The position numbers and the translations under genes were made by a program. Shown here one piece after another: positions 2,412-22,241 of a stretch of 64,000 nucleotides of DNA; position 1 is the stretch's first letter, and each line of letters begins with the position of its first letter. The notes beneath the pieces are model-generated. The model was given only the letters and a program-made list of their open reading frames with translations, was not told the DNA's origin and ran no database searches. This stretch comes from Lachnospiraceae bacterium (GTDB lineage: Bacteria > Bacillota > Clostridia > Lachnospirales > Lachnospiraceae). The stretch covers positions 1 to 64,000 of the forward strand of contig JAFSTX010000042.1 of assembly GCA_017445585.1 (NCBI GenBank). Reading direction: 5' to 3'.

Positions 2412-2440
2412 AAAAAATATGGCGCCCCATGCGGGGCGCC
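2412..2440 (-). terminator. Intrinsic terminator after the EAL phosphodiesterase gene
   Basis: On the minus strand the 8-bp GC-rich stem GGCGCCCC/GGGGCGCC with a four-base loop is followed by ATATTTTTTTATT. It lies just downstream of the EAL gene stop at 2451 and separates that operon from the ECF sigma gene. Confidence 0.88.
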
Positions 2441-2450
2441 GGTGATCATA

Positions 2451-4772
2451 TCAGCGCTGCTCTTCGTTGAAGTCGAGCGCGATCTTCTTTGACGTCAGGA
2501 ACGTTACGAAGTCGGCCTTGCCCATAGGTTTGGCGTAATAGAAGCCCTGTACGACCTCGCAGCCAAGCTTCTTAAGATACATGAGCTGCTCGCGGGTCTC
2601 GACGCCCTCCTGGGTGATCTTCATTCCCAGATCCTTGCCAAGCCTGATGATGCTTGTCAGGACCTTCTCGTCGCGATCAGCATAACTGCCCGATTTGATA
2701 AAGAAACGATCCAGCTTTATCTCATCCATCTGCAGTTCCTTAAGGATGCTGTAAGAAGAATAGCCCGATCCGAAATCATCGATGGAGCATTTGAAACCGT
2801 TCGCGTGAAGTCTGTTGATGATATCACGCAGCATATCATAGTTTTCATATGCCACGCTCTCCGTAAACTCCATCATGATATATCCGTTAGGAATATTATA
2901 TTTGCGTTTGATGCCCACATAGTAATCGACAAAATCAGGTTCCGCGGCAGTCAGGCGGGACACATTTACCGATACGGGATAGACGCGCTCTCTGGCAGCC
3001 AGTGAATCCGAGATGTATTTACATACCTCCTCATACACATAGCGGTCGAGCTTTGTAATGAAGCCGTTAGACTCGAACAGCGGCATGAAAACACCGGGCA
3101 GGGCGTACTGATCCTTGTTCTCATCATACCAGCGCACCAGAGCCTCGCTGCCGTCCGGACGGTTGTTTGCTATATTATACTTCGGCTGATAGAATACCTT
3201 GAATTCGTTGCCGGCCAGAGCGGCTTCCTGATGGACCTCTATATATCCGATAGTTCTCTTGCGCTCATTGAAGTCCTCGTTATAACGATGGAAGGTTCCG
3301 ATATCATCCGTAGCAGCTGATGCCTCCGAAGCATCCATGGCAAAATCGACCATCTCGTTGATATTGCCTGTAAAGCCTCGGCTTACCTCATAGATACCTC
3401 CAAAGAGCTCCAGATGATAACCATCCGGCATGTGCTCTCTGTATTTTTCTGCCTGTGTATACAGCTGTGACAGGCGCTGGCGGAGAACGGTGTCATCCTT
3501 ATAATGGACAGTCATTCCGAAATCACCGTTCGTCAGATAACCGAAGGACTCATACGGATCCATGGTTATCCTGATCAGATCGCGGATATGAATCAAAATG
3601 TCAGTCATGGCATCATAGCCGAGCTGATCGACAAAATACATATAATGCTTTATGCAGATAACTATTACGGCGTATTTGGAACCTGAGTACTGTCTGAGCA
3701 GCTCTTCGCTTTCTTTTTCATACTTCACGCGGCTGTTGCAGCCTATGCGTTCATCCGTACCGCTGAGTTCGGCAATCTTGCGGCGGCTGCGCGCATAGCT
3801 TATGATCGATGAGATCGCTACCACAAAAAGCAGTATCAGAAGGACGGCGAGCATGCCGAGAACCACACTAATAGTGCTGTAGCCGCCGCTGTAGATCTCA
3901 TTTGCCTGATAAAGTGCAACCACCGAAAAAGATGCATCGCTGCTTCCCATACTCGAAACGGCAAGTATAAACTCAGTCCCCTCTATGGTCGTCGGGAAAG
4001 CAGCCGCCGAACCGGTACGGATCACTTCCCTCGCCTGATCAAGCAGGGCATCATTTTTCAGCTTTTCGCTAAGCGCCTCATAGATGTTATTATGAAGGCC
4101 AAACTCATTCTCTCCGTCAGCGTTCGGCTTCTGGTAGAGGATATTCAGCATCTCACCGTCGTTTGAGCAGATAACGGTAAGCGTCGAATCCTGCAGATAC
4201 TCCTGGTTAAGCTTCTCGCGGTCTACGTTTACGATGACCTCGGGCGAGAAGAAGAAAATGATCGAATCCGCGTATTCAAAGTCATTGATCGGAACGATAA
4301 AGCCTACGACGGCGAGCGATATATCGCGATCCGTAACGACGCCGGTGCAGATAGTCTCGCGATCGGCGATATGGTTTCTGACGGCAGGGTCCTCGAGCGT
4401 CATATCAAAGACCTCGCCGTACCGGGTGTAATCGACACCGTCCTTATAGTAACGGCAGAAATAGAGCTCGCTGAAACGATCGTCACGGAAGAGGCCGTTT
4501 ATCACGGCGAGGAAGCCGTCACGATCGGCGGGATTGGAGGCTTTGACGGCCTCGGCCATAGTCTCGGACAAAGACATATAGTAATTGACGCGGTCTCTGA
4601 GAGCACCGACGGAATCCGTGGTGTAGAGCTGACCGCGAACACTGGCCTGATCGTCGAGATTAGTCGTATACTCGCTCATGATCATTCCTCCGACAAGCAG
4701 CAGCATTACGCAGAGGAAAGCCGTAAATATGAGCACCAGAGTACGGCCGTGATTTTTTAAGCGCGAGATCAT
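2451..4772 (-). CDS. Membrane-bound cyclic-di-GMP phosphodiesterase (degenerate GGDEF + intact EAL)
   Basis: A 773-residue protein. Residues 11-33 and about 298-325 are transmembrane helices enclosing an extracytoplasmic sensor domain. Residues about 335-495 resemble a GGDEF domain without the GGDEF signature, so cyclase activity is unlikely. Residues about 510-760 are an EAL domain that keeps the catalytic set: E543 (EALVRW), N603 (SVNVS), E635 (EFTES), D665-D666 (IDDFGSGYSS), K686 (IKLDRF), E722 (EGVET) and Q742 (QGF). It should hydrolyse c-di-GMP to pGpG at the membrane. The start overlaps the upstream SipW-type peptidase stop by four bases (ATGA), making it the last gene of the AAA+/SipW operon. 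Two c-di-GMP riboswitches lie nearby, so it probably provides negative feedback (inference). Confidence 0.92.
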   Translation of the reverse strand: MISRLKNHGRTLVLIFTAFLCVMLLLVGGMIMSEYTTNLDDQASVRGQLYTTDSVGALRDRVNYYMSLSETMAEAVKASNPADRDGFLAVINGLFRDDRFSELYFCRYYKDGVDYTRYGEVFDMTLEDPAVRNHIADRETICTGVVTDRDISLAVVGFIVPINDFEYADSIIFFFSPEVIVNVDREKLNQEYLQDSTLTVICSNDGEMLNILYQKPNADGENEFGLHNNIYEALSEKLKNDALLDQAREVIRTGSAAAFPTTIEGTEFILAVSSMGSSDASFSVVALYQANEIYSGGYSTISVVLGMLAVLLILLFVVAISSIISYARSRRKIAELSGTDERIGCNSRVKYEKESEELLRQYSGSKYAVIVICIKHYMYFVDQLGYDAMTDILIHIRDLIRITMDPYESFGYLTNGDFGMTVHYKDDTVLRQRLSQLYTQAEKYREHMPDGYHLELFGGIYEVSRGFTGNINEMVDFAMDASEASAATDDIGTFHRYNEDFNERKRTIGYIEVHQEAALAGNEFKVFYQPKYNIANNRPDGSEALVRWYDENKDQYALPGVFMPLFESNGFITKLDRYVYEEVCKYISDSLAARERVYPVSVNVSRLTAAEPDFVDYYVGIKRKYNIPNGYIMMEFTESVAYENYDMLRDIINRLHANGFKCSIDDFGSGYSSYSILKELQMDEIKLDRFFIKSGSYADRDEKVLTSIIRLGKDLGMKITQEGVETREQLMYLKKLGCEVVQGFYYAKPMGKADFVTFLTSKKIALDFNEEQR

Positions 4773-5587
4773 TTATCGTTCTCTCCTGTAGTATTATCGG
4801 ATGCCGGCTCATCTCCGGCGTCTTCTGCGGATGGCACCTCTTCGCTCGTGCCTTCACTGACTGTTTCCGCCTGAGGGGCCGTCCCGTCGGATGCCTCATC
4901 GGCAGCGGGAGCGGATATCTCCTTTGCTGAAGGCTCAGCAGGTGCGCCGTTCAGGCCGGGGATGACAAGATTCATGGACTTCATCTTTTCAAGCTCCTGA
5001 CGGACCATCTCTTCGATGAACTCCTCGTGGCTCCTGGCGGCTTCCTCCTCCTGCTTCTTCAGCGATTTCTTCAGATCGGGAAGATACAGCAGCATCATTA
5101 CAGCCATCACCACGACTATGATCATCATCAGACCCATCTTTGTGGAAAGAAGTCTGGTAAATCTTGTAACTATCGGAAGGTTGCGCACGTAGCGTCCCAC
5201 GACATCCTCGGGGAATACGTGATACGCGTCCTCCACCTGATTGTGATCGCCCTTTGTGACAAACTCCTCGTGATCGCCGATTATCTCAGCTATCCTGTGT
5301 GTATTTCTCTGGCCCTCGATCAGCGGATCGCGCGAGACGAAGACTATGATATCGCCCACGGCAAGCTCGGCGGGATCGACCTTTTCCACGAGGATATTGC
5401 TGCGCTCGGGGATCACCGGCTCCATACTTTCGGTAAGCACCCACATGATGCTGTGATTTCCGAAAAAGGGTACGTCGCCCCGCGAATTTGTCACAAGTAC
5501 AAAAACCGTCATGCCCACCAGGACCAGCATGACCAGGTATCCAAGGACATCCTTTATGATTTTCAGTACTTTAAAAAGTTTTTTCAT
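4769..5587 (-). CDS. SipW-type (ER-type) signal peptidase I, copy 1
   Basis: A 272-residue membrane serine protease of family S26B. The catalytic serine is S54 (LTESMEP), and the base is H97 (NTHRI) rather than the lysine of normal bacterial signal peptidases; TKGDHN follows with D114. This Ser-His layout is the hallmark of SipW and of archaeal/ER signal peptidases, which in Bacillus subtilis process TasA and TapA. There is an N-terminal helix at residues 13-33 and a second near 150-172, then a long charged, low-complexity cytosolic tail of about 95 residues that is not typical of SipW. It overlaps the genes on both sides by four bases, so the operon is tightly coupled. The WFxN-type proteins encoded nearby are the probable substrates. 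Confidence 0.9.
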   Translation of the reverse strand: MKKLFKVLKIIKDVLGYLVMLVLVGMTVFVLVTNSRGDVPFFGNHSIMWVLTESMEPVIPERSNILVEKVDPAELAVGDIIVFVSRDPLIEGQRNTHRIAEIIGDHEEFVTKGDHNQVEDAYHVFPEDVVGRYVRNLPIVTRFTRLLSTKMGLMMIIVVVMAVMMLLYLPDLKKSLKKQEEEAARSHEEFIEEMVRQELEKMKSMNLVIPGLNGAPAEPSAKEISAPAADEASDGTAPQAETVSEGTSEEVPSAEDAGDEPASDNTTGENDK

Positions 5588-7155
5588 TTATTCCTGGGAT
5601 GGCGTCCTTTGTTGTGCTGGATACCGCGCTTCTTCATACGGGCCTGACGGTTCTTTTCGGAAGAAGGTCTTCTCTTCTTTTCGCCGCTGTCCGCGGGCTT
5701 TCTGCCGTTCATGGCGGCATTATACTCGGCCAGGGTCATGCTGCCGGGCGTATCTGCAGCTTCATCCGCTGTATCGGCGCCGTTTTCGGCATCGCTCTTC
5801 TCCGTCTCCTGCGAGGCGCCGGTCATATTATCGCCGGTCTCATCCGTCACGGCTCCGGTCTCATCCGTCACGGCTCCGGTCTCATCTTCCGCCTCGCCGG
5901 CAGTTTCCTCTCCGGGCGCGGACTCGGGCTCGACAAACTCCGGTACAGGCTCAGGCTCGGGAATATCCCCGTAGGCAAGCGACTCCTCCGGATTTGCGGA
6001 AAGCATGATCTCCGAAGCGCGCAGAGAAACGGCCAGCGCCTCGGCCATCACGCCGGGTGCGTAAGCAGCGGAGCTCTGCTCCTGCTCTACGTCTCTGATG
6101 ATATCAAATTCATCGGCCGAAAGCTTTTTAAGGCGGTCGATGATCCTGGGCATGAAGGCCTCGTCGGTAAGCTGGGTATCCAGCATCCCGTCATCCTCCA
6201 TGTCGTTGCGTATATTGTAGCGGAAATTCAGATACTGGACCGCCGCCGCCCTGTAGAGATCGCGCAGATACGCCTCGGGCACGTCCTCCAGATTCTCCTG
6301 GATCAGCATACTGTAGCCTGCGCTCTCATATCCCTCGATAAACTGCCAGAGGGTCAGACATCTGCGCATGTTCGGATTCTTCATGATCGCGTTCGTATGC
6401 ATGATGGGCGGACGCACAAAACTCTGGCCCATGTTCCTCGCGAACTCCGAGCCGGCGTAGGTCTGCACTATATCGTATATCTTTACCACGCGCTTCCACA
6501 GATCGGTGGTCTTTGAGTAGTTCTTTTCGACGAGATCGGAATCGTCCGTAGGCTCCGCGATCTCCAGAGTAAAATGCATCTTGCCCTTGAGGTCTCCGTG
6601 TGAAAAAGACTGCTCCATGACAAGCGAAGTCTCGCGGGTATCCTGGCCCTCGTTCTTTGCCACATCATAGCGCATGGCGACAAAGGTCAGCAGGCGGTTG
6701 ATGAGCGTATTCAAAAACTTATTTTCGTAGGTCTGGAGAGTCTCTTCACGAAAGACGTTGAGCAGCTTGGAAGGAGTGACCGTGTCGCCCTCGATCTTTG
6801 AGATGAGATCAGTATGCTGCGCCAGATGCTTCACGGAGGCAGGCGAGATATTCTTGGACATCTCGATGGGAAGGACTTCTTCTCTCTCCATGATGTATTT
6901 TGACGGATTGCGGAGCGCGGCGTCCAGATAAGGCAGAGCATCCTCGATAGCGTTTACCCATGTCTCATCTATGGCGCGCAGCATATAGCGCTTTTTCAGC
7001 TCGACGCTGGCCTGCCCGCTCTGGAGCATGGCCATGACGGAGCTGAAAATATCGCTCTCCTCGATAAGTATATCCATGAGAGTTCCGTTTTCCTGATGGA
7101 AGGCACGGAGCTCTCTGGCTGTTGTATTCTGATTGGCTGTGTTGGTTTCAGGCAT
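5584..7155 (-). CDS. Partner of the McrB-like ATPase; DUF2357/McrC-context-like protein without visible nuclease
   Basis: A 523-residue, probably cytosolic protein with no signal peptide. The first about 370 residues are helical and include TYENKFLNTLINRLLTFVAMR, which resembles the conserved ENRF-type segment of the DUF2357/McrC-associated proteins that accompany McrB-like ATPases. I see no PD-(D/E)xK nuclease motif. After about residue 385 come acidic, Glu/Thr-rich low-complexity sequence, including a 21-bp DNA repeat (near 5840-5895) encoding the repeated DETGAVT, and a strongly basic C-terminus (KKRRPSSEKNRQARMKKRG). It lies 80 bp downstream of the AAA+ gene and overlaps the SipW gene by four bases. 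Its function is unknown; a structural adaptor for the AAA+ protein is the best guess. Confidence 0.6.
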   Translation of the reverse strand: MPETNTANQNTTARELRAFHQENGTLMDILIEESDIFSSVMAMLQSGQASVELKKRYMLRAIDETWVNAIEDALPYLDAALRNPSKYIMEREEVLPIEMSKNISPASVKHLAQHTDLISKIEGDTVTPSKLLNVFREETLQTYENKFLNTLINRLLTFVAMRYDVAKNEGQDTRETSLVMEQSFSHGDLKGKMHFTLEIAEPTDDSDLVEKNYSKTTDLWKRVVKIYDIVQTYAGSEFARNMGQSFVRPPIMHTNAIMKNPNMRRCLTLWQFIEGYESAGYSMLIQENLEDVPEAYLRDLYRAAAVQYLNFRYNIRNDMEDDGMLDTQLTDEAFMPRIIDRLKKLSADEFDIIRDVEQEQSSAAYAPGVMAEALAVSLRASEIMLSANPEESLAYGDIPEPEPVPEFVEPESAPGEETAGEAEDETGAVTDETGAVTDETGDNMTGASQETEKSDAENGADTADEAADTPGSMTLAEYNAAMNGRKPADSGEKKRRPSSEKNRQARMKKRGIQHNKGRHPRNK

Positions 7156-7235: not shown

Positions 7236-8870
7236 TTAGAATGACATCTTCTGCAGACGCTGCAGGTAAGCCACGCATTCCTTCATGGAATCCTTGCCAA
7301 AGAGGTTTCCGAGATAAAGGATCAGACCGCGGATCTCGTCACGGATGAGAGAAAGGTTAAGTGCCTCGAATTTGCGGAACACCTTTGTAGCGAGGATATA
7401 GTCGATGGCTTCGAGCTCAGTGCCTCCGCAGGCAACGTAGACCGGTACGAAGATCTTGAGCTGATTCATGATACGGTTACCGAAAGCCACCCTGAATTTC
7501 TCGATGACGTAGAGATCGAGATTGCTGATCTTGTCAAGTATCTCCTGGCTGACAGGATTCTTTTCGACAGCTTCCTTGTACATCTCCTCTACATGCGAGT
7601 AGCTGATATGCTTGGGAGCCGTATCGGGAGCCTCAAAAGGCATACCCTTGCTGTCCAGATTGATGACGAGCGCACGGTCGTAGACCTTGTCGGATACCGC
7701 GAAGGTGGAATCATCGTTATTTGCCGTACCGATGTACCAGACATTCTGAGGGATCTGGAGCTTGCCGTCGTCCAGGTGGGCGGGGTCGGTAGGCCAGGAT
7801 GAAGGCACGATCTCTATGCGCCACTCATTCGGGTCGGGCATCTCGAGGACTGAAAGCATCTCGGCGAAGTAATACTCCACACGCGCGATGTTCATCTCGT
7901 CGAGGATGATGATATTGATATCGTCATTGTACGAAGACTCATAGATGCGCTTGAGCACCTCTGTCTCGTTGAATTTCTTTGTGAATTCGTTAAAGAAGCC
8001 GAACAGCTCGGAGCGGTCACGCCACGACGGCTGTACGGAGGCGATGGTCGCGTCGTTCATAAAATACTTGCCCATGATATAAGGCAGCGAAGTCTTACCT
8101 GTACCGGAAATACCCTGCAGGAGGATCAGCTTGGTGGAAGCAAGTCCGGCAAACATAAGACGGATAATCTTTTTCTCATAGAACAGGCGGCCTCTGGAAC
8201 AGGCGAAATTCCTGATATCGTCGCAGAGCTGCTCGAGGTTCATGGAGTTGTCGTATTCGGGAGGCATGTAGTACGAATACTTTTCATCCACAGCCGACAG
8301 ACGGAAGAAACGCTTGGACTCCGAAGGATTCACGTCCGCGCCGCTTCCGGAGGAGGCTGCAGCTGCGACGGCTGCGCCGGCAGCCGGCGCAGCAGGGACC
8401 ATGCCGCCTACACCGGCTGTCAGTCCAACCTGACCCTCGGCTCCCGCCGCAGTCTGCTCTTCGAATATAGTGCGCAGGTCGTCATAGCTCATGCCTGTAG
8501 GCGCGATCTTAAGTGCAAGCAGACGCTCCTTTTCCGCTGTGAGCTGAATGACGTCGCGGTGAAGATCCGCAACCTCTTCGAGCAGGTCTTCATTACCTAC
8601 GATAGACTTGCGGAAACGGACATATTTACGTATCAAAAGGACTATCAAAAAGATGATGCCGCCTACGATGGCATACGTGAGCAGGATGGAAAGCGTGGCC
8701 AGTATCCATGCAAGGACGTTAAAACCGTCCTTGTAGCGATTCAGCTGCTCTATATACATCGGAATGTTAAAAAGCTGAGCAAAGCCTGTGAACAGACCTG
8801 ATATACCGTTCCACAGAGAGCTCAGTATTGTCGTAAAGAAAGCAAAAAACCAGTTCAGAAAAGCATCCAT
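7236..8870 (-). CDS. Membrane-anchored McrB-like AAA+ ATPase
   Basis: A 544-residue protein. The N-terminus is hydrophobic (a membrane-associated stretch at residues 5-35 and a clear transmembrane helix at about 52-81), followed by a coiled-coil-like segment (about 88-120) and an Ala/Gly-rich linker (145-180). The AAA+ core has Walker A GISGTGKT (253-260), Walker B IIILDEMNIA (D324, E325), sensor-1 GTANNDDST (381-389) and a likely arginine finger near R399. The LDEMNIA and GTANNDD signatures are those of the McrB/MoxR-like branch. McrB itself is a soluble GTPase of restriction systems; membrane anchoring and neighbouring SipW peptidases instead suggest a chaperone or assembly motor (inference). 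The ATG has a GGAAGGA ribosome binding site and lies only about 40 bases after a terminator. Confidence 0.85.
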   Translation of the reverse strand: MDAFLNWFFAFFTTILSSLWNGISGLFTGFAQLFNIPMYIEQLNRYKDGFNVLAWILATLSILLTYAIVGGIIFLIVLLIRKYVRFRKSIVGNEDLLEEVADLHRDVIQLTAEKERLLALKIAPTGMSYDDLRTIFEEQTAAGAEGQVGLTAGVGGMVPAAPAAGAAVAAAASSGSGADVNPSESKRFFRLSAVDEKYSYYMPPEYDNSMNLEQLCDDIRNFACSRGRLFYEKKIIRLMFAGLASTKLILLQGISGTGKTSLPYIMGKYFMNDATIASVQPSWRDRSELFGFFNEFTKKFNETEVLKRIYESSYNDDINIIILDEMNIARVEYYFAEMLSVLEMPDPNEWRIEIVPSSWPTDPAHLDDGKLQIPQNVWYIGTANNDDSTFAVSDKVYDRALVINLDSKGMPFEAPDTAPKHISYSHVEEMYKEAVEKNPVSQEILDKISNLDLYVIEKFRVAFGNRIMNQLKIFVPVYVACGGTELEAIDYILATKVFRKFEALNLSLIRDEIRGLILYLGNLFGKDSMKECVAYLQRLQKMSF

Positions 8871-9929: not shown

Positions 9930-9957
9930 ATTATACATTTTTTCACTCAAATGTAAA
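9930..9957 (-). promoter_or_regulatory. Sigma-A-type promoter of the second SipW-type gene
   Basis: Minus-strand TTTACA (9952-9957), a 16-bp spacer and TATAAT (9930-9935) precede the gene by about 95 bp. The surrounding 9840-10080 is AT-rich and contains no other gene. Confidence 0.75.
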
Positions 9958-13500: not shown

Positions 13501-15953
13501 GCTGATAAATTGTCCAATTCGTAAGCGGAAACTCTTATATCTCCCGACTGACGCGGATTATTAGTAAACTGCTGATACTCTGAACCGCTTACAATATAAC
13601 CTGTATTGACCGAAAGTGGTTCAAATGTATCATCTACTAAAAGCGGAAAAGCTGTAGGAAGAGATCCTGAATAGCTACCCGACTCCCCAAACAGATATAT
13701 ATATTTATAGTTGTTGGGCAGATTACTATCAGAATACAAACTAAACGTAAAACTACCCTTGTTACCACCATTAATTGCTCTAAGATAGGTAGTAGTTCCG
13801 CTAACAAAGGATTTATCTGAGTCACGTATCGTCAAAAGTCTGCTATGAAGTGCAAGCATATCTATACTTCCGCCCCAGTCATTGCCCGGACCGCCTACAT
13901 AATAAGTAGTCGTTGACCAGCCCTCGGCTGCATCATATACCAGTGCCCTGCCTTCGTTCTCTCCCACCATCGTATATATCTTCGCCTTTTCGCTGCCGGA
14001 GGCGTCCACGTTGTTCCACACGGTGGGCGTAGCGGGATTAGCCTCGACGGTAAGAGTGCCGACGGAGTCACACATCAGATAGTAGGTTGTACCGTTATAT
14101 TCTGTGGTCAGGGTATAGTCGGTTGACGCGCTCTTTACCCAGGGAAGGGCCGAAGCCTTTACGGTATCAGAGATCGCGGCGGGGCTGCCTGATATAGTCA
14201 GGTAATGCGTGCCGGTGCTCTCCGTGATGAGATTCGTTTCTTTTCTGATCAGCTGCCAGAAGCCGTCCTTGTAGCACAGATACCACTGTCCGCTGTAGAT
14301 CTCGTCCGTGCCGATGGTCCAGGCGGTAGTGCCGGCAGGTGCAGCAGCGTCTTCAGCCAGTGCGCCGCTCGATCCGAGCGTGTTGTCGGCTGATTTAACC
14401 ATATAATATTTGCTGACGGTATCGCCGCTCTGGATGATGGTGTAGATGTTGCCGCCGTCTATTACCCATTTGGTCGCGTTTGCCTCCAGCGTCGCGTTGC
14501 CGAAGGTCGTCCCGTTAAAGGTCAGGTAATTTGTCCCGCTGTAGATATAAACTGCGGGCTTTTCATATTCGTAGATATGATGGACTTCCTGCGTCCTGGT
14601 AGCGGTGGTCTCTTCGCCGTAGAGGTACACAAAGTCCGTGGTGTCGTCTCTCTGTACGATGGAGTATGAAGCTATAACATCGCCGTTGTCATCGACCTCG
14701 GTGACCTTTATGGGGTACGTCAGGCTGCCGGTGCCGCCCTGTACGGTGACGGAGAGAGGCGCGGTGCCATTGCCTGTCACGACGTCTGTTATCGTTCCAT
14801 CAGCATGATGCGTGCGGGTGATCGCGCTCGCGTAAGTAGCGCTTGTATTTGTAGTCGTGGTATAGACACTGCGAAGGTCATTGTACATCGAGCGCATATC
14901 CACGCTGGCGCCCCAGTTGTTGCCCTGCTCGGGCGTGGCGCCGCCACCGCCGCCGCTGGAGATCGCCTGCGGATCGTAGACCTGTACGGTCGTTACTTCA
15001 TTTACCTGTTTGAAAGGCTCGGTGCAGTAGCCGACCGCGCCGTAATCGGTAAGATTTGTCGTGCCTACGCCGGCCACGGAGGCAGTTGCTCCGCTCACGA
15101 GGGTGCCGCCCACGACACGCACATTTTCCATGGTGCCGTTTACGTATCCTGCGGCTATGCCGGCCAGAGACTCGGTAGTCTGGGTCTTTATTTCGGCGTT
15201 CTGAAGGACCACGTCGCGCACTTCGATAGCGGCACTGCTGTAGGTGACGGAGTTTCCGCCTATGGTGACGGTGCCGTCGCTGGTTCCGTCAGCCTCTCCC
15301 ACTATGCCGAAAAAGCCCACGATCTTTGCGGGATCGGTGAGCGAGCCGCCACTCAGCGCCTGCTCGGGAACGTTGACCGCGGTAGCAGTACCGCCGGAAA
15401 GAGAGGTGTTTTGAAGGTCATTGACATTATTTGAGATCTTAAGACCCTTGATCGTATATCCGTTGCCGTTGAAATTGCCGAGGAAAGGATTCTCCTCGGT
15501 GCCGACGGGAGGCAGCGTCAGACCGGCGTATTCTCCCGTAGTCAGATCGATATCGCTCGTCAGGACAAAGTAGGTCTGCTTCAGAGCGCCGTTTTCGGTC
15601 TGATTGAAATATCCGAGATACTGCAGCCAGGCGAAGTTATAGAGCTGGATGGCATTGTCGATCTGATAAGGGCCATCGCTGTTGCCGCCGTCGTATGCAT
15701 AGGAGGGGTACTTGGTACCGGGCTCCTTGTAATCGGTTTTTGTCGTGCCGTCGTCAGGCGCGCTTCCGTCGCCGCCGTTGAAGTAGAAGGCGTGTGCCGC
15801 GCCGGATACGGTTACGAGATCCACCACGTCCTCGACCTTTGCAAACCACGCCAGTGAGCCGGTGCCGATAAGCACCGCCACGATCAGGAAGAGAAGCGAG
15901 ATGATGAATCTCGGCCTCGGAAGTATTAATTTTCTGCGTTCTTCTCTGCTCAT
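10527..15953 (-). CDS. Giant (1808-residue) secreted/surface protein with SipW-type N-terminus and duplicated modules
   Basis: The N-terminus is basic, then hydrophobic (residues about 15-37), and runs into SLAWFAKVEDVVDLVTVSGAA, like the AWFS/WFAN junction of the neighbouring TasA-like proteins, so SipW-type processing is likely. Residues about 130-175 contain a GLUG-like beta-strand motif (NFNGNGYTIKGLKISNN). Two paralogous modules follow: one has CIDFNLKTKGYINFFAGTYF then EYALGSVANKNGAYLMYLDI, the other SIDFNVATKGRVTFMAGTYF then EFALGSADGDGAYLIYLDI. The body is Thr/Ser/Gly-rich, as in bacterial adhesins. No LPxTG motif, LysM repeat or C-terminal helix is seen, so anchoring is unexplained. 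It lies 127 bp downstream of the 275-residue protein, under the same c-di-GMP riboswitch. The segment 12480-13920 is clearly AT-richer than the rest of the gene. Confidence 0.85.
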   Translation of the reverse strand: MSREERRKLILPRPRFIISLLFLIVAVLIGTGSLAWFAKVEDVVDLVTVSGAAHAFYFNGGDGSAPDDGTTKTDYKEPGTKYPSYAYDGGNSDGPYQIDNAIQLYNFAWLQYLGYFNQTENGALKQTYFVLTSDIDLTTGEYAGLTLPPVGTEENPFLGNFNGNGYTIKGLKISNNVNDLQNTSLSGGTATAVNVPEQALSGGSLTDPAKIVGFFGIVGEADGTSDGTVTIGGNSVTYSSAAIEVRDVVLQNAEIKTQTTESLAGIAAGYVNGTMENVRVVGGTLVSGATASVAGVGTTNLTDYGAVGYCTEPFKQVNEVTTVQVYDPQAISSGGGGGATPEQGNNWGASVDMRSMYNDLRSVYTTTTNTSATYASAITRTHHADGTITDVVTGNGTAPLSVTVQGGTGSLTYPIKVTEVDDNGDVIASYSIVQRDDTTDFVYLYGEETTATRTQEVHHIYEYEKPAVYIYSGTNYLTFNGTTFGNATLEANATKWVIDGGNIYTIIQSGDTVSKYYMVKSADNTLGSSGALAEDAAAPAGTTAWTIGTDEIYSGQWYLCYKDGFWQLIRKETNLITESTGTHYLTISGSPAAISDTVKASALPWVKSASTDYTLTTEYNGTTYYLMCDSVGTLTVEANPATPTVWNNVDASGSEKAKIYTMVGENEGRALVYDAAEGWSTTTYYVGGPGNDWGGSIDMLALHSRLLTIRDSDKSFVSGTTTYLRAINGGNKGSFTFSLYSDSNLPNNYKYIYLFGESGSYSGSLPTAFPLLVDDTFEPLSVNTGYIVSGSEYQQFTNNPRQSGDIRVSAYELDNLSASYNGTITTENVTGYLITRNGATSYRLGLTPDLTGIKVLRYSSQSTTNTDRVASYWFLSDGTETSGYLTTVLNYVRYYANIVDGEIVVSTTPSTVWVSSTALSGTGYTLHSGNLYLGYDSSTTSWILTNQAAAVALRSWGTASLKYYTSSYDKDSMTVYTRTARSNGLQSFNSNSAAESYGLQKYASARDSLDTVLSSGKGAIYGLHFMDATVGASDVIIPNATINGDSSLTNYHVPSDCIDFNLKTKGYINFFAGTYFENNDAFFSLSHIIRTSNTAYAIKQIAEIYAPLISSDDYIYKYSDGTYSSNASRGSMIFDMAWLTNPGSDFVDERLYYYEIPVNAGEYALGSVANKNGAYLMYLDISASAAIEGDSLFDTSVETAVASNKASDPLEYTTTDDTTESVDINTYPTYYPLAWNQGHTAPASTNTGYVISGGSTDSAPPGDIRVSRYNKNAAGNWASIRASLANGVLNNGRVYTIVNGTQQTITQYGIGNQLTTQYEKVSAEVNDLLRDETYVYGMHFMQAQISAADTVTVPKAVINGTTYTDYAMPQDSIDFNVATKGRVTFMAGTYFSGSNGTQSFFSLHHVLRDSDQNITAIKELAGIYGDGDSTHNYVYSYVGDTNYYNSDGTLAGSSLPSGYAQIFDTAVIRNRRNLTMNSVYYFEVPLDAGEFALGSADGDGAYLIYLDIAANADFSIRTTTTETTRVSTVALDYPKGVAFVDAADSVLFDTEGSLDPSKSVFLSLPTAASAGTTTFAMSQDKTLTVTNTDALLTGYAAKNVPADATLVVTNSSGSPATINVTGTETITETVTSLDANSAGGTITTTTVTTQTTQNGATSTEVVQNVATTSISGTTTTVTTSPAPAYDGHSLIPTDYTGAEPAPAAVILEYNVEGMGLTHTVTRDGSLNLVATEQTVSVTEGDRTVEYTVFDAVRQTGDEDSTAAGKYDVVIGGTAGTYDVYVTTLDTNFDYTMNTTAFSVTGRREVTVQ

Positions 15954-16080: not shown

Positions 16081-16908
16081 TCAGTCTTCTATCCTCAGGT
16101 ACTCGATGTCATTTTCAAGTCTGAAGATGTTACTTTCGGTGGATCCGACGGAAACCACGTGCTGCTTCAGGTAATCCGACATGAGAGCGTCGTCGTAGGT
16201 AAGGTAGAAATACACATACATTGTGCTGGCGCCGGTGTGCATAAAGGCAAAATTCAGGTCATCGATCTTTGAGTACCCGCCCTGCGAGAGCGTCGTAAAT
16301 GTGTTGCCCGCAACGCCCTTACCGGCTCCGCTCTTGAAATAAGTCTCTACGTCATTGTAGACGTCCTCGGGATTGACCGTCCCGGAATAGGTCGCCTTCA
16401 TATATGCCCCCGAGAAGTCCGCCTCGGTGCAGGGCTGGAGCCTGAGCACGCTGGTGATATAGCTGGGAAGCGCCTCACCCGAGGAGGGAAGCGCCGTGCC
16501 GTCCTTGCTGAGCAGCCTCTTCATATCGAGGTGGAATACCTGTCCCGCCGAGTATACGCCGCCGGTCAGCTTTACACGCAGGACCATGGGTGTATACGTA
16601 TTTCTGTCGACGAAGATGGTGTCATGTTCGTTCATCTGGAGCCCGTCCGTACCGAAGAAGGCAAACGAAAGCCTGTCCAGATCGTATTTGACAGCGTCCA
16701 TGAAAATGCTCGCGCGTCTGTCGGCGTCGGTGGTGACGTTCATTCCGGAGCCGCTTACATCACGGTTATTTGCAAACCAGCCAAGGGACTTGTTGAAGAG
16801 CAGCACAAAGGCCAGTATCACGGCCACTGCAAGCACGATAAGCACAGCAAGCCTCGGTGCCAGCTGTGCAATGCCTCGTATTTTGTTCTCTGCTGTAGTC
16901 TTAGCCAT
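16081..16908 (-). CDS. WFxN-type (camelysin/TasA-like) membrane or secreted protein, first gene of the riboswitch operon
   Basis: A 275-residue protein with a basic start, a long hydrophobic helix at residues about 17-40 and the sequence LGWFANNRDVSGSGMNVTTDA directly after it. That hydrophobic core followed by WFxN..V..N resembles SipW-dependent signal peptides of the TasA/camelysin kind. The rest is probably an extracellular beta-sandwich. I see no enzyme motif. It begins the operon that also encodes the giant surface protein, 127 bp downstream. Upstream lies a consensus promoter, a c-di-GMP-I riboswitch and a terminator hairpin, so expression should depend on c-di-GMP. The ribosome binding site is weak (TAAGG very close to the ATG). 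A minor subunit or anchor for the giant protein is plausible (inference). Confidence 0.75.
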   Translation of the reverse strand: MAKTTAENKIRGIAQLAPRLAVLIVLAVAVILAFVLLFNKSLGWFANNRDVSGSGMNVTTDADRRASIFMDAVKYDLDRLSFAFFGTDGLQMNEHDTIFVDRNTYTPMVLRVKLTGGVYSAGQVFHLDMKRLLSKDGTALPSSGEALPSYITSVLRLQPCTEADFSGAYMKATYSGTVNPEDVYNDVETYFKSGAGKGVAGNTFTTLSQGGYSKIDDLNFAFMHTGASTMYVYFYLTYDDALMSDYLKQHVVSVGSTESNIFRLENDIEYLRIED

Positions 16909-16983: not shown

Positions 16984-17022
16984 CGAAAACACAAAAGACA
17001 GCCAGTAATGCAACTGGCTGCC
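16984..17022 (-). terminator. Riboswitch-controlled terminator upstream of the 275-residue protein
   Basis: Minus-strand CAGCCAG (in 17014-17020) pairs with CTGGCTG (16999-17005) across an 8-base loop, followed by TCTTTTGTGTTTT. The 5' arm is part of the conserved 3' strand of the c-di-GMP-I aptamer, so aptamer folding and termination exclude each other. Confidence 0.8.
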
Positions 17023-17093
17023 TTAAATATCAGGGCCCTATAGCTTTGCGTCACCGCCTTTCGACGGCTTTGCCTTTTAATACTTCTTAAACT
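17008..17093 (-). promoter_or_regulatory. Cyclic-di-GMP-I (GEMM-I) riboswitch, copy 2
   Basis: The transcript reads GGCAAAGCCGTCGAAAGGCGG, then TGACGCAAAGCTATAGGGCCC and later GGCAGCCAGTTGCAT. This is the GEMM-I pattern: a GCAAA..C start, a P2 hairpin capped by GAAA, the GACGCAAAGC linker, a P3 arm with the tetraloop receptor and a GGCAGCCAG 3' strand. Its 3' strand overlaps the terminator arm, so ligand binding is predicted to allow read-through (ON switch) into the 275-residue and giant surface-protein genes. The ON direction is inferred; the class assignment rests on recognised conserved bases. Confidence 0.9.
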
Positions 17094-17099
17094 GAGTGT

Positions 17100-17128
17100 A
17101 TTATAAAGAAAAGCAGCCTGACTGTCAA
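17100..17128 (-). promoter_or_regulatory. Consensus sigma-A promoter of the giant-protein operon
   Basis: Minus-strand TTGACA (17123-17128), a 17-bp spacer and TATAAT (17100-17105) form a perfect consensus promoter. The predicted start is near 17093, directly at the 5' edge of the riboswitch. The strength of the promoter implies that regulation is left to the riboswitch. Confidence 0.92.
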
Positions 17129-17323: not shown

Positions 17324-17372
17324 AAAAGTAGGATAAGTATATCAAATAAGCTGTTCTTATCCTACTTTTTTT
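17324..17372. repeat. TAGGATAA hairpin repeat, copy R1
   Basis: A 14-bp inverted repeat (AAAAGTAGGATAAG / CTTATCCTACTTTT) around an 18-base loop. It is one of four related elements in 17324-19051. It is flanked by A and T runs, so it could act as a bidirectional terminator. The 12-base string AATTCACTCAAA occurs just upstream, as it does near copy R4. The rest of 17129-17640 holds no gene that I can see. Confidence 0.8.
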
Positions 17373-17499
17373 CTCAGAGGCCATTTAATTCAGCCAGATA
17401 AGTCTTCTTTTCTCTATGAACTTAACAGAAAACCCGGAGAAATATGGTAAGTTTCACCGAATCAAAGATCTGATCCGGCTTCTCAAGTGCTTTGAATAC

Positions 17500-17548
17500 A
17501 AAAAAATAGGATAAACATCTTAAAAAACTGATGACTTATCCTATTTTT
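17500..17548. repeat. TAGGATAA hairpin repeat, copy R2
   Basis: AAAATAGGATAA (within 17500-17514) pairs with TTATCCTATTTT (within 17536-17548) around an A-rich loop of about 21 bases. Same design as R1, R3 and R4. It lies 93 bp beyond the 3' end of the nuclease-like gene. Confidence 0.8.
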
Positions 17549-17640
17549 CCGGAATTGGCTCCGAAATCAGCTCAGTGGAAGATGAATTAAGCAGAGCCGG
17601 TAATCGTAAGTACGACTGAAAATGCAGATTGCAGCTGATG

Positions 17641-18456
17641 CTAAAGCAGATATCTGCGGATCATGAATTCCACCACTCGTGTATTGAGCACCTCCTCACT
17701 GCCTTCGAAAGTATATATAACGTCTTCACCGGGAAGCAGACCGTTCAGCGTGTAATTGTTGTACTTCCTAACGAAATTCGACTCATAATCAGCCATGTCC
17801 ACCATCCCGGCATGTTCCCACATAACTTCCTTGCGCCTGCGTATATTAAGCGCTGTAAAATCCGGGTAATAGGTTCTCCCGTCCGAAAGGAATGCAGGGT
17901 GCTCATACATATACGGAACTTCCATCTGATAGAGCATATTGGCAATTATCAATTCCGATTTCGAGCGTACGCTTTCTCCTTTCAGCGTTATAAGCTCATC
18001 CTTGGTCGGCGGAAGAATCACGCAGGTATCCGATGTTCTGTACCAGCCTGCCACAAATTCTTCATCACTTTCGATGACTGGATTGACATAATGCCGAAGC
18101 TCCGGATGAAAAAGCTCGATCACCTCCTCAGCCGGGCGCATGGACATCTCCAGCAGCATTGCCTCAATCGACTTGATCTCCCTGTCTACTGCCTTCAACG
18201 TCTTCTGATCATATTTTTTCTGAGCGAGTGCCGATATCTGACGGGTATCCTTTTTTGAAAGATAAACTCCGTTGGTTTCACTTCCGCTGCGCATATAAAA
18301 TCTCACTTTTCCGTTGCTCTCTGAAATGCGCAGCGTACCCTGCGGCGCGCGTTTCAAGGACCTATTAAGCCTGCTGTGATACGTCTTAAGCTCTGTCAGC
18401 CTGCTTTTCAGCATATCACTGACATCACACAGGCATGCGATACCTGAATAATTCAT
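17641..18456 (-). CDS. PD-(D/E)XK-nuclease-like protein
   Basis: A 271-residue protein. I chose the ATG at 18456 (MNYSGIACL) because it has an AGGGAG ribosome binding site; the reading frame stays open further upstream but without a good start signal and across low-similarity sequence. The N-terminal half is a charged, coiled-coil-like region (LKSRLTELKTYHSRLNRSLK). The C-terminal part reads RSKSELIIANMLYQMEVPYMYE, then YYPDFTALNIRRRKEVMWEHAGM, matching the pattern of a PD-(D/E)XK nuclease fold (E of SKSE, D of PDF, then E-x-x-W-E-H in place of E-x-K). Such proteins are common as stand-alone genes in Clostridia with unknown role. It is flanked on each side by two TAGGATAA hairpin repeats, which may be linked to its function. 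Confidence 0.7.
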   Translation of the reverse strand: MNYSGIACLCDVSDMLKSRLTELKTYHSRLNRSLKRAPQGTLRISESNGKVRFYMRSGSETNGVYLSKKDTRQISALAQKKYDQKTLKAVDREIKSIEAMLLEMSMRPAEEVIELFHPELRHYVNPVIESDEEFVAGWYRTSDTCVILPPTKDELITLKGESVRSKSELIIANMLYQMEVPYMYEHPAFLSDGRTYYPDFTALNIRRRKEVMWEHAGMVDMADYESNFVRKYNNYTLNGLLPGEDVIYTFEGSEEVLNTRVVEFMIRRYLL

Positions 18457-18728
18457 GATTACTCCCTGGATTGATAATTGATTTTGGGGGCTGCATTGTC
18501 CGCGGGACCCTTGCATGCAGACCGTATCAGGATGGTTGCGCAAAAGAATGCGCGAATCCATTAGAGTGGTCCCATACCGGTTAAGGTATCTTATCCTCGA
18601 AATGAGAACGTGAAAAAATAATATCACAGTTTCCCCTGAATGTATACCGTTTTTTACACCGATAGCGCAAGTCTGTTGCCAGCCGGAGTCTGTTGCATGA
18701 AGGTGAACTTGTATTGCTCCCCTGACGG

Positions 18729-18776
18729 CGGACAGCCAATGGTCTGCGTTTGCGGGCGCGCCATTGGCTGCCCGCG
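18729..18776. repeat. Long imperfect inverted repeat upstream of the nuclease-like gene
   Basis: GCGG-ACAGCCAATGG and CCATTGGCTG-CCCGC can pair (10 perfect central base pairs plus GC-rich outer pairs) around a GC-rich loop of about 18 bases. It lies between the nuclease-like gene start and repeat R3. No T run follows, so a simple terminator is unlikely. The whole gap 18457-19160 otherwise holds only R3 and R4. Confidence 0.65.
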
Positions 18777-18825
18777 CCGATAACAGAAATCGCAAACAGA
18801 GAGCGTTAACAGAGCGCCAGGACTG

Positions 18826-18874
18826 AAAAATAGGATAAATTCTAAAAAAAATGCCATACTTATCCTATTTTTTT
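18826..18874. repeat. TAGGATAA hairpin repeat, copy R3
   Basis: AAAAATAGGATAA (18826-18838) pairs with TTATCCTATTTTT (18860-18872) around a 21-base loop containing an eight-A run. Same spacing and core as R1, R2 and R4. Confidence 0.8.
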
Positions 18875-19003
18875 CTGTGCGAGCATTATAATCCTAGGGG
18901 CACCGCTATTCATTCCTGTCAAGTTAACAATTATTCAAAGAGAAATTGTTAAATTCACTCAAATCTTTGATCGGCTCTCTCTCCAGACACACAATAGCAA
19001 ATG

Positions 19004-19051
19004 AAAAAGTAGGATAAGATTTTAAAAAAATAGTGAGTTATCCTACTTTTT
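19004..19051. repeat. TAGGATAA hairpin repeat, copy R4
   Basis: AAAAAGTAGGATAA (19004-19017) pairs with TTATCCTACTTTTT (19038-19051) around an A-rich 20-base loop. The flank upstream (AATTCACTCAAATCTTTGATC) resembles the flank of R2 and shares AATTCACTCAAA with R1, so the repeated unit may be longer than the hairpin. Confidence 0.8.
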
Positions 19052-19162
19052 CATTTTCTGATCCCTCGGGCCTTCAGATCTGGCCTCGCATATTCTGGTT
19101 TTCATGCAGCAATCCCTTATCCGCTGTATTTGTTGGTTACTAACTGTTTTGATTACACTTCA

Positions 19163-19356: not shown

Positions 19357-20265
19357 TCAGGCCTTGGTGTCAAGTGAGAACTTAATGTCAACCTTGATAT
19401 CATCAAGCTGAGCAGCAAGAGCGTTATCGGTCATGCAGTTGGCATCTTCGCCCTCATACCAGATGTAGACATCAACCTTAGCTCCGTTAGCGTCGGAAGC
19501 AGGAAGCTTCGCAAGATCGGTAGGAGTAACAGTAGTTCCTGCGATCGCATTAGTAGCGGTAGAGGAAGCATTTACATAATAGGTAGCGGTGTAACCGGTA
19601 ACAGGTGCATAGATGTAGAACACGGAGTTCATCTTGATACCAACTCTGAGTGACTTGTTGAGGTTGGTAGAACCGGTACTAGCAGCAGGGGTAGCAGTAG
19701 CTGTTACTTCTTTAATGCTTACATACTGGTCGCCAGAGGCCTCGTTCTTAAGAGTGATCTCCTGGCCGGAGGACTTAAGATAGTACTCATAGTGGACATA
19801 GTAGCCGGCAGGCGCGTCAGCAGCGGTACCCATGGTCTCTCTCTTGGCTTCCGAGCCGGCGGTAGCGCTCTTGCTCATAGCGGTGATAGCAGTCAGACCA
19901 GAAAGTGTCTCATAGTTGCCGATGATGTCGCCGGACTTGGATCCGGGCGTTGCAGCAGCTGCGCTGTTGGACTTCGTGCTGGCAGCATGATACCATGTTG
20001 ATCCGTCAGCAGTGGATGCCGGATAGAGAAGAGAGGCATCGGTAGAAGCAGTCTGCTTGGCAGTAGCTTCGCTGTCCCAGGTGGTGTCGTTAGCTGCCTG
20101 AACCTCGTTGATCAGAAGACCCTGCTCAGCAACGGCTCTGACTTCCATGCTGGTAGCAGAGACTTCTTTGTTCATCGAGAACCATGCGAAAGTTGCGGAG
20201 CTCATGGCTGTAGCAGAAACAAGAAGCATAGCCAGAGCGGGGATGAGTTTCTTGAACTTCTTCAT
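19357..20265 (-). CDS. TasA/camelysin-like secreted protein with SipW-dependent signal peptide
   Basis: A 302-residue protein. The N-terminus MKKFKKLIPALAMLLVSATA, then MSSATFAWFSMNKEVSATSMEV, is a textbook SipW-dependent signal peptide: basic start, hydrophobic core, then AWFS and a beta-strand region. The mature part is Ala/Thr/Ser-rich. Near the C-terminus VYIWYEGEDANCMTDN then DIKVDIKFSLDTKA parallels WLEGPDPDCVDKIIGGQ then FKIDM of the neighbouring 260-residue protein, so the two are paralogs. TasA-family proteins form extracellular matrix fibres; the same role is inferred here. A strong ribosome binding site (AAAGGAG) and a strong terminator suggest high expression. It is the third gene behind the first c-di-GMP riboswitch. 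Confidence 0.85.
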   Translation of the reverse strand: MKKFKKLIPALAMLLVSATAMSSATFAWFSMNKEVSATSMEVRAVAEQGLLINEVQAANDTTWDSEATAKQTASTDASLLYPASTADGSTWYHAASTKSNSAAAATPGSKSGDIIGNYETLSGLTAITAMSKSATAGSEAKRETMGTAADAPAGYYVHYEYYLKSSGQEITLKNEASGDQYVSIKEVTATATPAASTGSTNLNKSLRVGIKMNSVFYIYAPVTGYTATYYVNASSTATNAIAGTTVTPTDLAKLPASDANGAKVDVYIWYEGEDANCMTDNALAAQLDDIKVDIKFSLDTKA

Positions 20266-20332: not shown

Positions 20333-21115
20333 TCAAACAATACTAAACTTTCTGACCGGCAGGACCGCTTTCGACTCGGCTGCGTTCATGCCGTCGTTGC
20401 CGTCTTCGGAACCTATGACCGTCATCGCCATGTCGATCTTGAACTGTCCTCCGATGATCTTGTCGACGCAGTCGGGGTCGGGACCCTCGAGCCAGATGAC
20501 CACTGTGTACTTCGTCGTATCTCCCGGAGCGAAGTTCTCGATGGTCTTCCGTACGATCGTCGTCTCGGACTGGAAGGCCGTGGTGCCGGGTTCCGGTCCT
20601 TCTATACCGTCCGTCCTCGGGTAGGCATAGTCAACGTACTCGCCGTTGGTGTATATCCTCACTCTGACCGCCTTTTCTATCTCGTAGGTCATGTTCGCGA
20701 TATAGCACTCGTAGTTGTATTTGATTGTCTTGGTGCCCTGGTTCCTGCAGTAGAAGGTGTAGGCTACGTAATTATCTCCGTTATGCTCTCCGTCTACGTT
20801 GTCCACCCACGCGGGGATCGTGGAACCGTCTATATTCGTTACTTCCTTTGCTATCTCCGCGTTCAGCCTCGAGGTGTAGCTGTTAAAATTCTGTGACGCT
20901 GAAAGCGTGAGCGCATATTCCAGATTATCAAACTTGTTTACCGATACCGTGAAGGCTCCGAACTTCATATAGAGCACTGTGATAACATATCCGATGATCA
21001 GTATCAGTATCGCTATTCCTATGATTATCGGAATCAGCTTCATCCAGATGCGGTAGCGTTTGACCTCCTCCGCAGTTCGTCGGATGCCGACCCCTACGAC
21101 TCTTGATCTAGCCAT
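20333..21115 (-). CDS. Camelysin/TasA-like membrane-anchored protein
   Basis: A 260-residue protein with a cytosolic basic start, one transmembrane helix at about residues 27-50 and an extracellular domain. Its C-terminal WLEGPDPDCVDKIIGGQFK, followed by IDMAMTV, matches the C-terminal pattern of the TasA-like protein downstream, which marks it as a paralog. It lacks the AWFS motif after the helix, so it may stay anchored and serve as a base or minor subunit, as TapA does for TasA (analogy only). Its ATG overlaps the upstream stop by one base (TAATG), so it is coupled to the degenerate EAL-like gene. A small hairpin lies between it and the next gene and could raise the level of the downstream product. 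Confidence 0.75.
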   Translation of the reverse strand: MARSRVVGVGIRRTAEEVKRYRIWMKLIPIIIGIAILILIIGYVITVLYMKFGAFTVSVNKFDNLEYALTLSASQNFNSYTSRLNAEIAKEVTNIDGSTIPAWVDNVDGEHNGDNYVAYTFYCRNQGTKTIKYNYECYIANMTYEIEKAVRVRIYTNGEYVDYAYPRTDGIEGPEPGTTAFQSETTIVRKTIENFAPGDTTKYTVVIWLEGPDPDCVDKIIGGQFKIDMAMTVIGSEDGNDGMNAAESKAVLPVRKFSIV

Positions 21116-22068
21116 TATTCCTCCTCGGCATGCTGGGCTGCGGCTTCTTCAAGTCTCATCCTGAGACTGCCGTGCTTTACATTTCCCTGATAGCCGGAAG
21201 AAGGGATATAAGCCCTGCAATCGCATTTCGTAAGTGCGTTTATCTGATTGTCATTGTACACACCGTCAGCAATCACATCCGCCGAAAAGCTCTTGAGGAA
21301 ATTCACCAGAGCCGCGACGTTCGCGCCCTTAGACCGGCTGTCACTCATGGAGGTGATCAACGGATCCAGAAGGAAGAAGTCCACCGGGATCTCATAGAGC
21401 GCCGCGGGTGAGATATCTGCAGCTCCGATGCCGGTGACCATGGTGCGGACTTTCAGGAGCTTCATATCGAGGATCGATTTTCTGATCTTCGCTCTGGACT
21501 CCGGATCCGTCGACCTGATGAGTCCTGCAGGAAATTCGAGGCAGATGGTCTCTGGTGCGAGGCCCTGCTCCTGAGCAAGACCTTTAACGATGTCGTAGAG
21601 GTCATCTCTCAGGCACATCTCCCAGGGGCATCTCGCTGTCACATACTGGATCTTCCTGCCTGCCAGCTCCATCTGGCGTGCGGCCCGCAGCGCGTGAGTG
21701 ATGTTCCACTTTGCAAGGCCGATGCCCTCCTCTGTGGGATCGGTCTCGGTGCTGTAGATCTCCGGACCGGTCACTCCGGTGCTGACGCTGTTCAAATATG
21801 TAAAGGTGCGGTATGCAATGGGTTCCGGCGGATAAGTGCTGTTGATCTGAGCAAATCTCATCTCTATGGGATCGACGCCGGCCTCGATAGTTGCGTTAAC
21901 CAGTCTGGCACGATCCAACTCAGGCCCTTCGAGTACCGGCAGATCCTCCTGCTCGGTCCCGGCATCCTGACCGGAAATCTCCTGCGTCACTTCTGTCTGC
22001 TTTGCATTTTCCTCTGTGTCTTCGGTAGTCAGTACTTCGCGTCCTTCAATTTCTGTATTCTCGGACAT
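21115..22068 (-). CDS. Degenerate EAL-like domain protein, probably catalytically inactive
   Basis: A 317-residue cytosolic protein; I use the ATG at 22068 (MSENTE), which has an AAAGGAG site, rather than the GTG at 22095. Residues 1-50 are acidic and disordered. Residues about 65-300 follow the EAL fold: ICLEFPAGLI stands where active enzymes have LEITES, TGIGAADIS where they have DDFGTGYSS, IPVDFFLLDPLI for LPVDxLKID, and VIADGVYNDNQINAL for IAEGVETxxQ. The EAL glutamate, the DD pair and the metal-binding glutamates are missing, so phosphodiesterase activity is unlikely. It could be a c-di-GMP or protein-binding receptor for the export system. It is the first gene behind its own c-di-GMP riboswitch. 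Confidence 0.8.
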   Translation of the reverse strand: MSENTEIEGREVLTTEDTEENAKQTEVTQEISGQDAGTEQEDLPVLEGPELDRARLVNATIEAGVDPIEMRFAQINSTYPPEPIAYRTFTYLNSVSTGVTGPEIYSTETDPTEEGIGLAKWNITHALRAARQMELAGRKIQYVTARCPWEMCLRDDLYDIVKGLAQEQGLAPETICLEFPAGLIRSTDPESRAKIRKSILDMKLLKVRTMVTGIGAADISPAALYEIPVDFFLLDPLITSMSDSRSKGANVAALVNFLKSFSADVIADGVYNDNQINALTKCDCRAYIPSSGYQGNVKHGSLRMRLEEAAAQHAEEE

Positions 22069-22097: not shown

Positions 22098-22140
22098 AAA
22101 AAAATGCAACCTACGCAGTCATAGTGACTTGCAGATTGCA
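22098..22140 (-). terminator. Riboswitch-controlled terminator before the degenerate EAL-like gene
   Basis: On the minus strand TGCAA..TGC.AGTCA pairs with TGACT.GC..TTGCA around a CTA loop, followed by a seven-T run. The 5' arm starts within the last bases of the c-di-GMP-I aptamer, so the two structures compete. It ends about 30 bases before the start codon. Confidence 0.8.
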
Positions 22141-22207
22141 ACTGGCTGCCCTTTCGGGTCCTATAGCTTTGCGTCGCCGCCTTTCGACGGTTTTGCTCTC
22201 GTCTGAT
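22136..22207 (-). promoter_or_regulatory. Cyclic-di-GMP-I (GEMM-I) riboswitch, copy 1
   Basis: The transcript contains GCAAAACCGTCGAAAGGCGG, then CGACGCAAAGCTATAGGACCC, a GAAA loop and GGCAGCCAGTTGCAA. These are the conserved elements of the GEMM-I aptamer (GAAA-capped P2, GACGCAAAGC joining segment, P3 and the conserved 3' strand). The core is nearly identical to the second copy at 17008-17093, which shows that both operons respond to the same signal. Overlap with the terminator predicts ON regulation by c-di-GMP (inference). Confidence 0.92.
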
Positions 22208-22213
22208 ACTGCA

Positions 22214-22241
22214 ATTATACCAACTCAAAGCAGTTTGTCAA
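22214..22241 (-). promoter_or_regulatory. Consensus sigma-A promoter of the degenerate-EAL/TasA-like operon
   Basis: Minus-strand TTGACA (22236-22241), a 16-bp spacer and TATAAT (22214-22219). The predicted transcript start is near 22207, at the 5' edge of the riboswitch. AT-rich sequence lies upstream of the -35 element. Confidence 0.92.

Follow-up and report, generated by a model that had tools for sequence, protein, structure and literature searches.

A probable CoCoPALM-type cluster for making surface filaments or large adhesins, associated with cyclic-dinucleotide riboswitches, in a rumen clostridial genome

We analysed a stretch of 64,000 nucleotides (the window) from contig JAFSTX010000042.1 of a Lachnospiraceae bacterium. 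The source is a rumen clostridial metagenome-assembled genome (MAG) of 2.44 Mb in 80 contigs, of which the window represents contig 9. All the genes named in a preliminary description of this DNA were present on the minus strand at 2421-22241. We consider it probable that they form a cluster for the biogenesis of surface filaments (or large adhesins) that is of the CoCoPALM type and is turned on by a cyclic dinucleotide. In the direction of transcription, the cluster starts with riboswitch 1, a degenerate EAL protein (degEAL), the membrane-anchored TasA-like protein TM260, the putative filament subunit WF302 and a terminator, followed by an unrelated open reading frame (ORF) of 271 amino acids (aa). 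The middle part consists of riboswitch 2, the surface protein WF275, a giant protein of 1808 aa and a DUF2442 protein of 99 aa. The last part comprises the signal peptidase SipW1, a McrB-like AAA+ protein, its DUF2357 (McrC-like) partner, the second signal peptidase SipW2, an EAL phosphodiesterase and the closing terminator (2440-2421). All coordinates of cluster features given below refer to the minus strand.

An AAA+ profile search of genome contigs yielded at least 543 coding relatives. For a survey of gene order, ORFs were called in the best 80 loci and three more and compared by iterated profile searches; the SipW2 profile was built from single domains, fused proteins excluded, and neighbours were counted in loci with enough flanking sequence. 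A fixed gene order was observed in more than 80 loci labelled Lachnospiraceae, Ruminococcus, Christensenella, Bacilli and other clostridia. The prevailing order in the surveyed loci was degEAL-TM260-WF302 (one or several)-SipW1-AAA+-McrC-SipW2, with the EAL enzyme next in one large clade. McrC directly followed AAA+ in 70 of 70 loci, a SipW gene occurred downstream of AAA+ in 58 of 58 and upstream in 68 of 71, and TM260 and degEAL were present in 47 and 44 of 53 loci, respectively. Co-occurrence of the AAA+, DUF2357-like and SipW genes with GEMM-I riboswitches in other genomes had been put forward as a check: nearly all close relatives have the three genes together and in an unchanging order, and riboswitches recurred at the same cluster position in relatives. 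The closest AAA+ relative (97% identity) came from a Lachnospiraceae MAG, and rumen MAGs were numerous among the others; the machinery is also encoded by cultured Ruminococcus albus, R. flavefaciens and R. bicirculans. To offset the bias towards close relatives, 393 genomes were drawn evenly across the class. An AAA+ match at E<1e-60 was obtained in 21 of these (5%, some ten families). Among 20 loci inspected from this sample, the nearest 15 (AAA+ at about E<1e-150) all had a SipW neighbour, while the five most distant had none and mostly displayed AAA-McrC-AAA arrangements.

A phylogenetic tree computed from 81 AAA+ proteins set the Ruminococcus clade (40 rows) apart with full support. By parsimony, the EAL neighbour changed once on this tree, riboswitch presence seven times and the McrC-SipW2 fusion described below at least five times. 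Two further observations were made in the relatives. A conserved coiled-coil-like protein of 74-90 aa (KKRxRSQAAL...DVEYFNxFTExIE), not encoded in the window, separates SipW2 from the EAL gene in many loci (L024 14706-14930, L025 13647-13919, L026 13844-14071, L028 5621-5860, L033 13185-13415, L039 13910-14140, L044 10482-10712). Four loci of distant relatives (L126, L127, L128 and L129) have two AAA+ genes around one McrC gene, with large proteins nearby and no SipW.

The membrane AAA+ protein (7236-8870) matches McrB in the Protein Data Bank (PDB) with an E value of 0.0014 and has one strong hydrophobic segment (residues 62-80), which is followed by a charged, coil-like stretch. Its nucleotide-binding motifs are intact, with Walker A GISGTGKTS, Walker B LDEMN and the signature NNDD. 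Across 81 sequences, hardly any variation occurs in QGISGTGKTS, LDEMN, NNDD (N384 included) or a conserved DR. In the main text of the paper that named CoCoPALM (PMC11090510), NxD in place of the NxxD signature motif is given as a hallmark of CoCoNuT and CoCoPALM; NNDD (residues 384-387) fits NxD followed by D, and an ungapped alignment to E. coli McrB fits NxxD too. The partner protein (5584-7155) scored above the gathering threshold of PF09823, in line with its earlier assignment as DUF2357-like. Domain-model searches detected no PD-(D/E)xK nuclease domain in it or in its fusions to SipW2, and a profile search for structures returned only chance matches to coiled coils.

In 14 loci of the Ruminococcus clade, the McrC-like part (approximately residues 7-350) and SipW2 (approximately 765-950) are encoded by a single ORF of 973-1029 aa. 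Curated models for DUF2357 and signal peptidases both matched the fused proteins, except that the DUF2357 part in L095 was recognised by our own profile only. The fusion is common to R. albus 8, KH2T6, AR67, R. flavefaciens YAD2003 and Ruminococcus sp. YE71; since these are independent isolates, it does not result from an assembly error. At the level of sequence, the fusion argues for physical coupling of the McrC-like protein and SipW2, and, of all our observations, it points most strongly to an action of the McrBC-like pair on exported proteins.

Both SipW1 (8953-9837) and SipW2 (4769-5587) proved to be SipW-like peptidases of the S26 family, as proposed before. They belong to the ER-type (Ser-His) signal peptidases, with 79 and 87 bits to TIGR02228, above its cut-off in either case. 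The S, H and D motifs are intact in both proteins and are found in the relatives too. At least four WFxN/TasA-like or giant surface proteins had been noted before. Three of these carry an (A/G)WF signal, namely WF302 (19357-20265; FAWF), WF275 (16081-16908, 275 aa; GWF), which recurs beside a giant protein in other loci, and the giant 1808-aa protein (10527-15953; AWF), a putative adhesin for which no Pfam or NCBIfam match was obtained. The fourth, TM260 (20333-21115, 260 aa), is instead a membrane-anchored relative lacking the signal, with a transmembrane segment at residues 30-48; it is a highly conserved surface component whose WLEGxDPDC motif is present in 54 of 57 relatives. Among WF302 relatives, 41 of 43 have (F/Y)AWF. 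Structure prediction gave models with a mean pLDDT (predicted local distance difference test) of 73.6 for WF302, a beta-sandwich, and 82.4 for TM260. Structural comparison of WF302 placed FimA (Z 6.1), a Sulfolobus thread (5.3) and the TasA fibre (5.0) among the closest matches. Those of TM260 included the TasA fibre 8aur (Z 6.5, Foldseek E 7.6e-4) along with the Sulfolobus 0406 filament and bundling pili of Pyrobaculum. Both models have donor-strand filament subunits (FimA, TasA and archaeal threads) among their closest matches, from which we infer that WF302 and TM260 may form fibres. A WF302 profile gave only chance matches against PDB sequences, and no sequence similarity to TasA was detected.

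The two riboswitches had been described as near-identical c-di-GMP-I elements (c-di-GMP, cyclic di-GMP). Both were confirmed by Rfam, but they are identical at only 58 of 73 positions (79%) and do not have the same base at position 20, which contacts the ligand. Riboswitch 1 (22134-22207), upstream of degEAL, has A20 and scores 49.1 bits with RF01051 (gathering threshold 35). Riboswitch 2 (17005-17083), upstream of the surface proteins, has G20 and scores 61.9 bits with the c-di-GMP-I-GGC model RF03167 (gathering threshold 59). The whole genome contains three GEMM-I aptamers, two of which lie in the cluster. The remaining one, on another contig (L018, G000:C58, 2134-2218), precedes a secreted protein of more than 641 aa with GWY-type repeats that is cut by the contig end. 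The promoters, too, were as described: the sole two sigma-70 sites with 12/12 consensus in 20 kb, TTGACA-N16-TATAAT at 22214-22241 and TTGACA-N17-TATAAT at 17100-17128, directly precede the riboswitches of units 1 and 2, respectively. This clustering of riboswitches and promoters is far from chance. Strong terminators, each with eight G-C pairs and a T-run after the stem, end unit 1 (19327-19308) and the cluster (2440-2421), and an additional promoter-like site (9957-9930; 11/12 consensus) lies ahead of the machinery genes. Based on these elements, the cluster probably comprises three transcription units.

A covariance model built from ten aptamers identified 24 aptamers when run on the window, the rest of its genome and related loci. 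Most are located just upstream of degEAL and others before SipW1 (directly so in L046, L051 and L052) or before WF275 or the giant protein; L035 and L039 have tandem aptamers, and L124 and L125, from other families, have aptamers as well. Wherever a T-run is present (23 of 23 cases), the aptamer 3' strand AGCCAGTTGC or its end forms part of the 5' arm of the terminator, and these overlapping terminators are mostly more stable than those with shuffled spacers. The Geobacter pilM switch, in which the terminator is likewise formed from the aptamer 3' strand, is an ON switch with ligand-induced read-through (PMC9262584). As the layout is equal, the switches described here are, by inference, of the ON type. 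Five aptamers, riboswitch 1 among them, have A in place of G20, an exchange that has been linked to 3',3'-cGAMP (cyclic GMP-AMP) binding in GEMM-I (PMC6274999). From sequence, c-di-GMP and 3',3'-cGAMP are therefore candidate ligands of riboswitch 1 in vivo.

The EAL phosphodiesterase (2451-4772; PF00563 E 4.4e-57) is a membrane protein with a degenerate GGDEF domain. Its EALxRW, NVSR, EFTES, DDFG, KLD and EGVE motifs are intact, so that it appears active as suggested previously. The other EAL-fold protein, degEAL (21115-22068, 317 aa, ATG at 22068; PF00563 E 2.8e-13), is catalytically dead: here and in all relatives the catalytic motifs and the nucleotide ligands are lost. We also considered degEAL as a c-di-GMP receptor and dismissed this role, as no c-di-GMP contact residue is conserved; a scaffold role appears more likely.

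Taken together, we envisage that high levels of c-di-GMP (or of 3',3'-cGAMP for A20 aptamers) would stabilise the aptamers, whose 3' strand could then not enter the terminator, and that the subunit and adhesin genes would be transcribed. The WF proteins would be exported, cut by both SipW-type peptidases and assembled on membrane-anchored TM260. The AAA+ protein would form a ring that is stimulated by the nuclease-free McrC-like protein, itself coupled to SipW2, and would supply energy for the handling or release of precursors, while the membrane EAL enzyme would lower c-di-GMP as feedback. Whether all this amounts to an uncharacterised class of Gram-positive filament machine, in which a McrBC-derived membrane NTPase, joined through McrC to a SipW-type peptidase, drives the processing or assembly of TasA-like subunits and ON-type cyclic-dinucleotide riboswitches license transcription, is a broader proposal that we make only tentatively.

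Several results weigh against the main interpretation. The Ruminococcus clade has kept the machinery and the dead EAL protein with neither a riboswitch nor an EAL phosphodiesterase adjoining; no aptamer was found there with the covariance model, and Rfam concurred for six loci. Five EAL-bearing loci (L026, L027, L040, L053 and L060) likewise have no detectable riboswitch. The proposed fibre or adhesin system with dedicated machinery under c-di-GMP control is supported in part, by the conserved gene set and the recurrence of GEMM-I elements; riboswitch control is limited to part of the family. An absence of c-di-GMP was discarded as the cause of riboswitch loss in Ruminococcus: GGDEF domains occur in all 27 genomes checked, and all Ruminococcus genomes among them have many. 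Riboswitches and the EAL phosphodiesterase are associated (Fisher p 5e-7); we did not accept this as independent evidence, because the EAL neighbour changed just once in the phylogeny. Distant AAA-McrC loci (f165 and f205) have no SipW neighbour, and SipW linkage therefore marks a subfamily rather than every relative. The structural matches are moderate, with best Z scores of 6-7 and no Foldseek hit at E<1e-3 for WF302. Beta-sandwich domains of enzymes reach similar scores, so the filament-fold match is a lead and not proof.

Membrane AAA+ proteins often extract or unfold proteins. The AAA+/McrC pair might accordingly serve for quality control or extraction at the membrane, removing WF precursors that are stalled or misprocessed near SipW, rather than as an assembly motor, as its membrane anchor, its ring domain and the fusion of the McrC-like partner to a peptidase would allow. 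However, no protease or known adaptor domain was found in the cluster with Pfam and NCBIfam models, and order and conservation suit assembly equally well; we regard this explanation as unlikely. We give still less credence to an anti-phage module, similar to type IV restriction, whose location beside surface proteins and c-di-GMP control would serve to defend the cell or to exclude phages. The McrB homology of the AAA+ protein and its match to the PADLOC candidate-defence model PDC-M26A (E 7e-35) point in this direction, as does the RNA-targeting defence predicted for CoCoNuT relatives in the main text of PMC11090510. The DUF2357 partner, in contrast, had no PADLOC match, neither it nor its fusions contain a nuclease domain, and the genes to which the pair is stably linked encode two signal peptidases and export substrates. 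It would also be conceivable that riboswitch control is incidental, with GEMM-I aptamers roaming among the export genes of a general surface-protein regulon unrelated to the McrBC-like machinery. The separate promoter-like site of the machinery genes at 9957, the unrelated secreted protein behind the third genomic aptamer and the aptamer-free Ruminococcus loci are compatible with this. We nevertheless judge it quite improbable, given that aptamers recur at the cluster head in divergent relatives, directly precede SipW1 in three loci and are also present in the two loci from other families. Riboswitch-controlled biogenesis of filaments or adhesins is the explanation we retain.

The 271-aa ORF between WF302 and riboswitch 2 (17644-18456) had no Pfam match; PD-(D/E)xK-like motifs were noted by eye. 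On each flank it has a pair of palindromes of about 47 bp (AAAAAGTAGGATAAG...CTTATCCTACTTTTT), spaced by 178-179 bp within both pairs. The pattern occurs in four copies genome-wide, all within 17324-19059. Four divergent paralogs are encoded elsewhere in the genome, and the three examined lack the palindromes. Near one paralog (L136, 606-800), copies of TAATTCCGGATGAAAAAACA are repeated every 52 bp or so.

The preliminary description knew of no described system with this gene set, which does not hold for the core: the McrBC/signal-peptidase combination was named CoCoPALM in 2024 (PMC11090510), in one paragraph of the eLife main text that defers further treatment. According to that paragraph, an FtsB-like transmembrane/coiled-coil region is fused to the NTPase and McrC often lacks an active nuclease. 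By these described features, the cluster resembles CoCoPALM in its McrB-like NTPase, its McrC homolog and its signal peptidases, and the hydrophobic segment and coil-like stretch of the NTPase are candidates for the fused region. It differs in the additional riboswitches, EAL proteins and TasA-like substrates and in the McrC-SipW fusion seen in relatives, and the term c-di-GMP is absent from the main text of that paper. In the literature searched, we found no follow-up to CoCoPALM and no other report of this gene set; the cyclic-dinucleotide arm, the TasA-like substrates, the pseudo-EAL protein and the McrC-SipW2 fusion appear to be unreported there. If our interpretation is correct, a motor of the restriction-enzyme type has been co-opted for exporting proteins and assembling fibres, and the surface structures of clostridia from rumen and gut are controlled by a cyclic-dinucleotide switch. 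CoCoPALM, so far a name only, becomes a testable system, in which a direct McrC-SipW2 complex is to be expected from the fusion, and induction by the ligand from the terminators.

With the type IV restriction system McrBC of E. coli, the cluster shares a homologous NTPase core and a DUF2357 stimulator, but the pair described here is membrane-anchored and tied to signal peptidases, and no DNA-binding or nuclease domain was found in it. To our knowledge, neither the tapA-sipW-tasA operon of Bacillus nor the BsaA/SipW operon of Clostridium perfringens includes a McrBC-like pair or a riboswitch. Common to these operons (PMC7395162 for BsaA/SipW) and the cluster are a dedicated SipW-type peptidase and an aromatic residue near the substrate cleavage site (predicted here), with a moderate match to the TasA-like fold, whereas one peptidase there compares with two here and WF302 has no detected sequence similarity to TasA. 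The Geobacter pilM riboswitch (PMC9262584) senses cGAMP and belongs to a Gram-negative type IV pilus gene; like the riboswitches of the cluster, it has a terminator formed from the 3' strand of the aptamer and lies ahead of genes for surface appendages.

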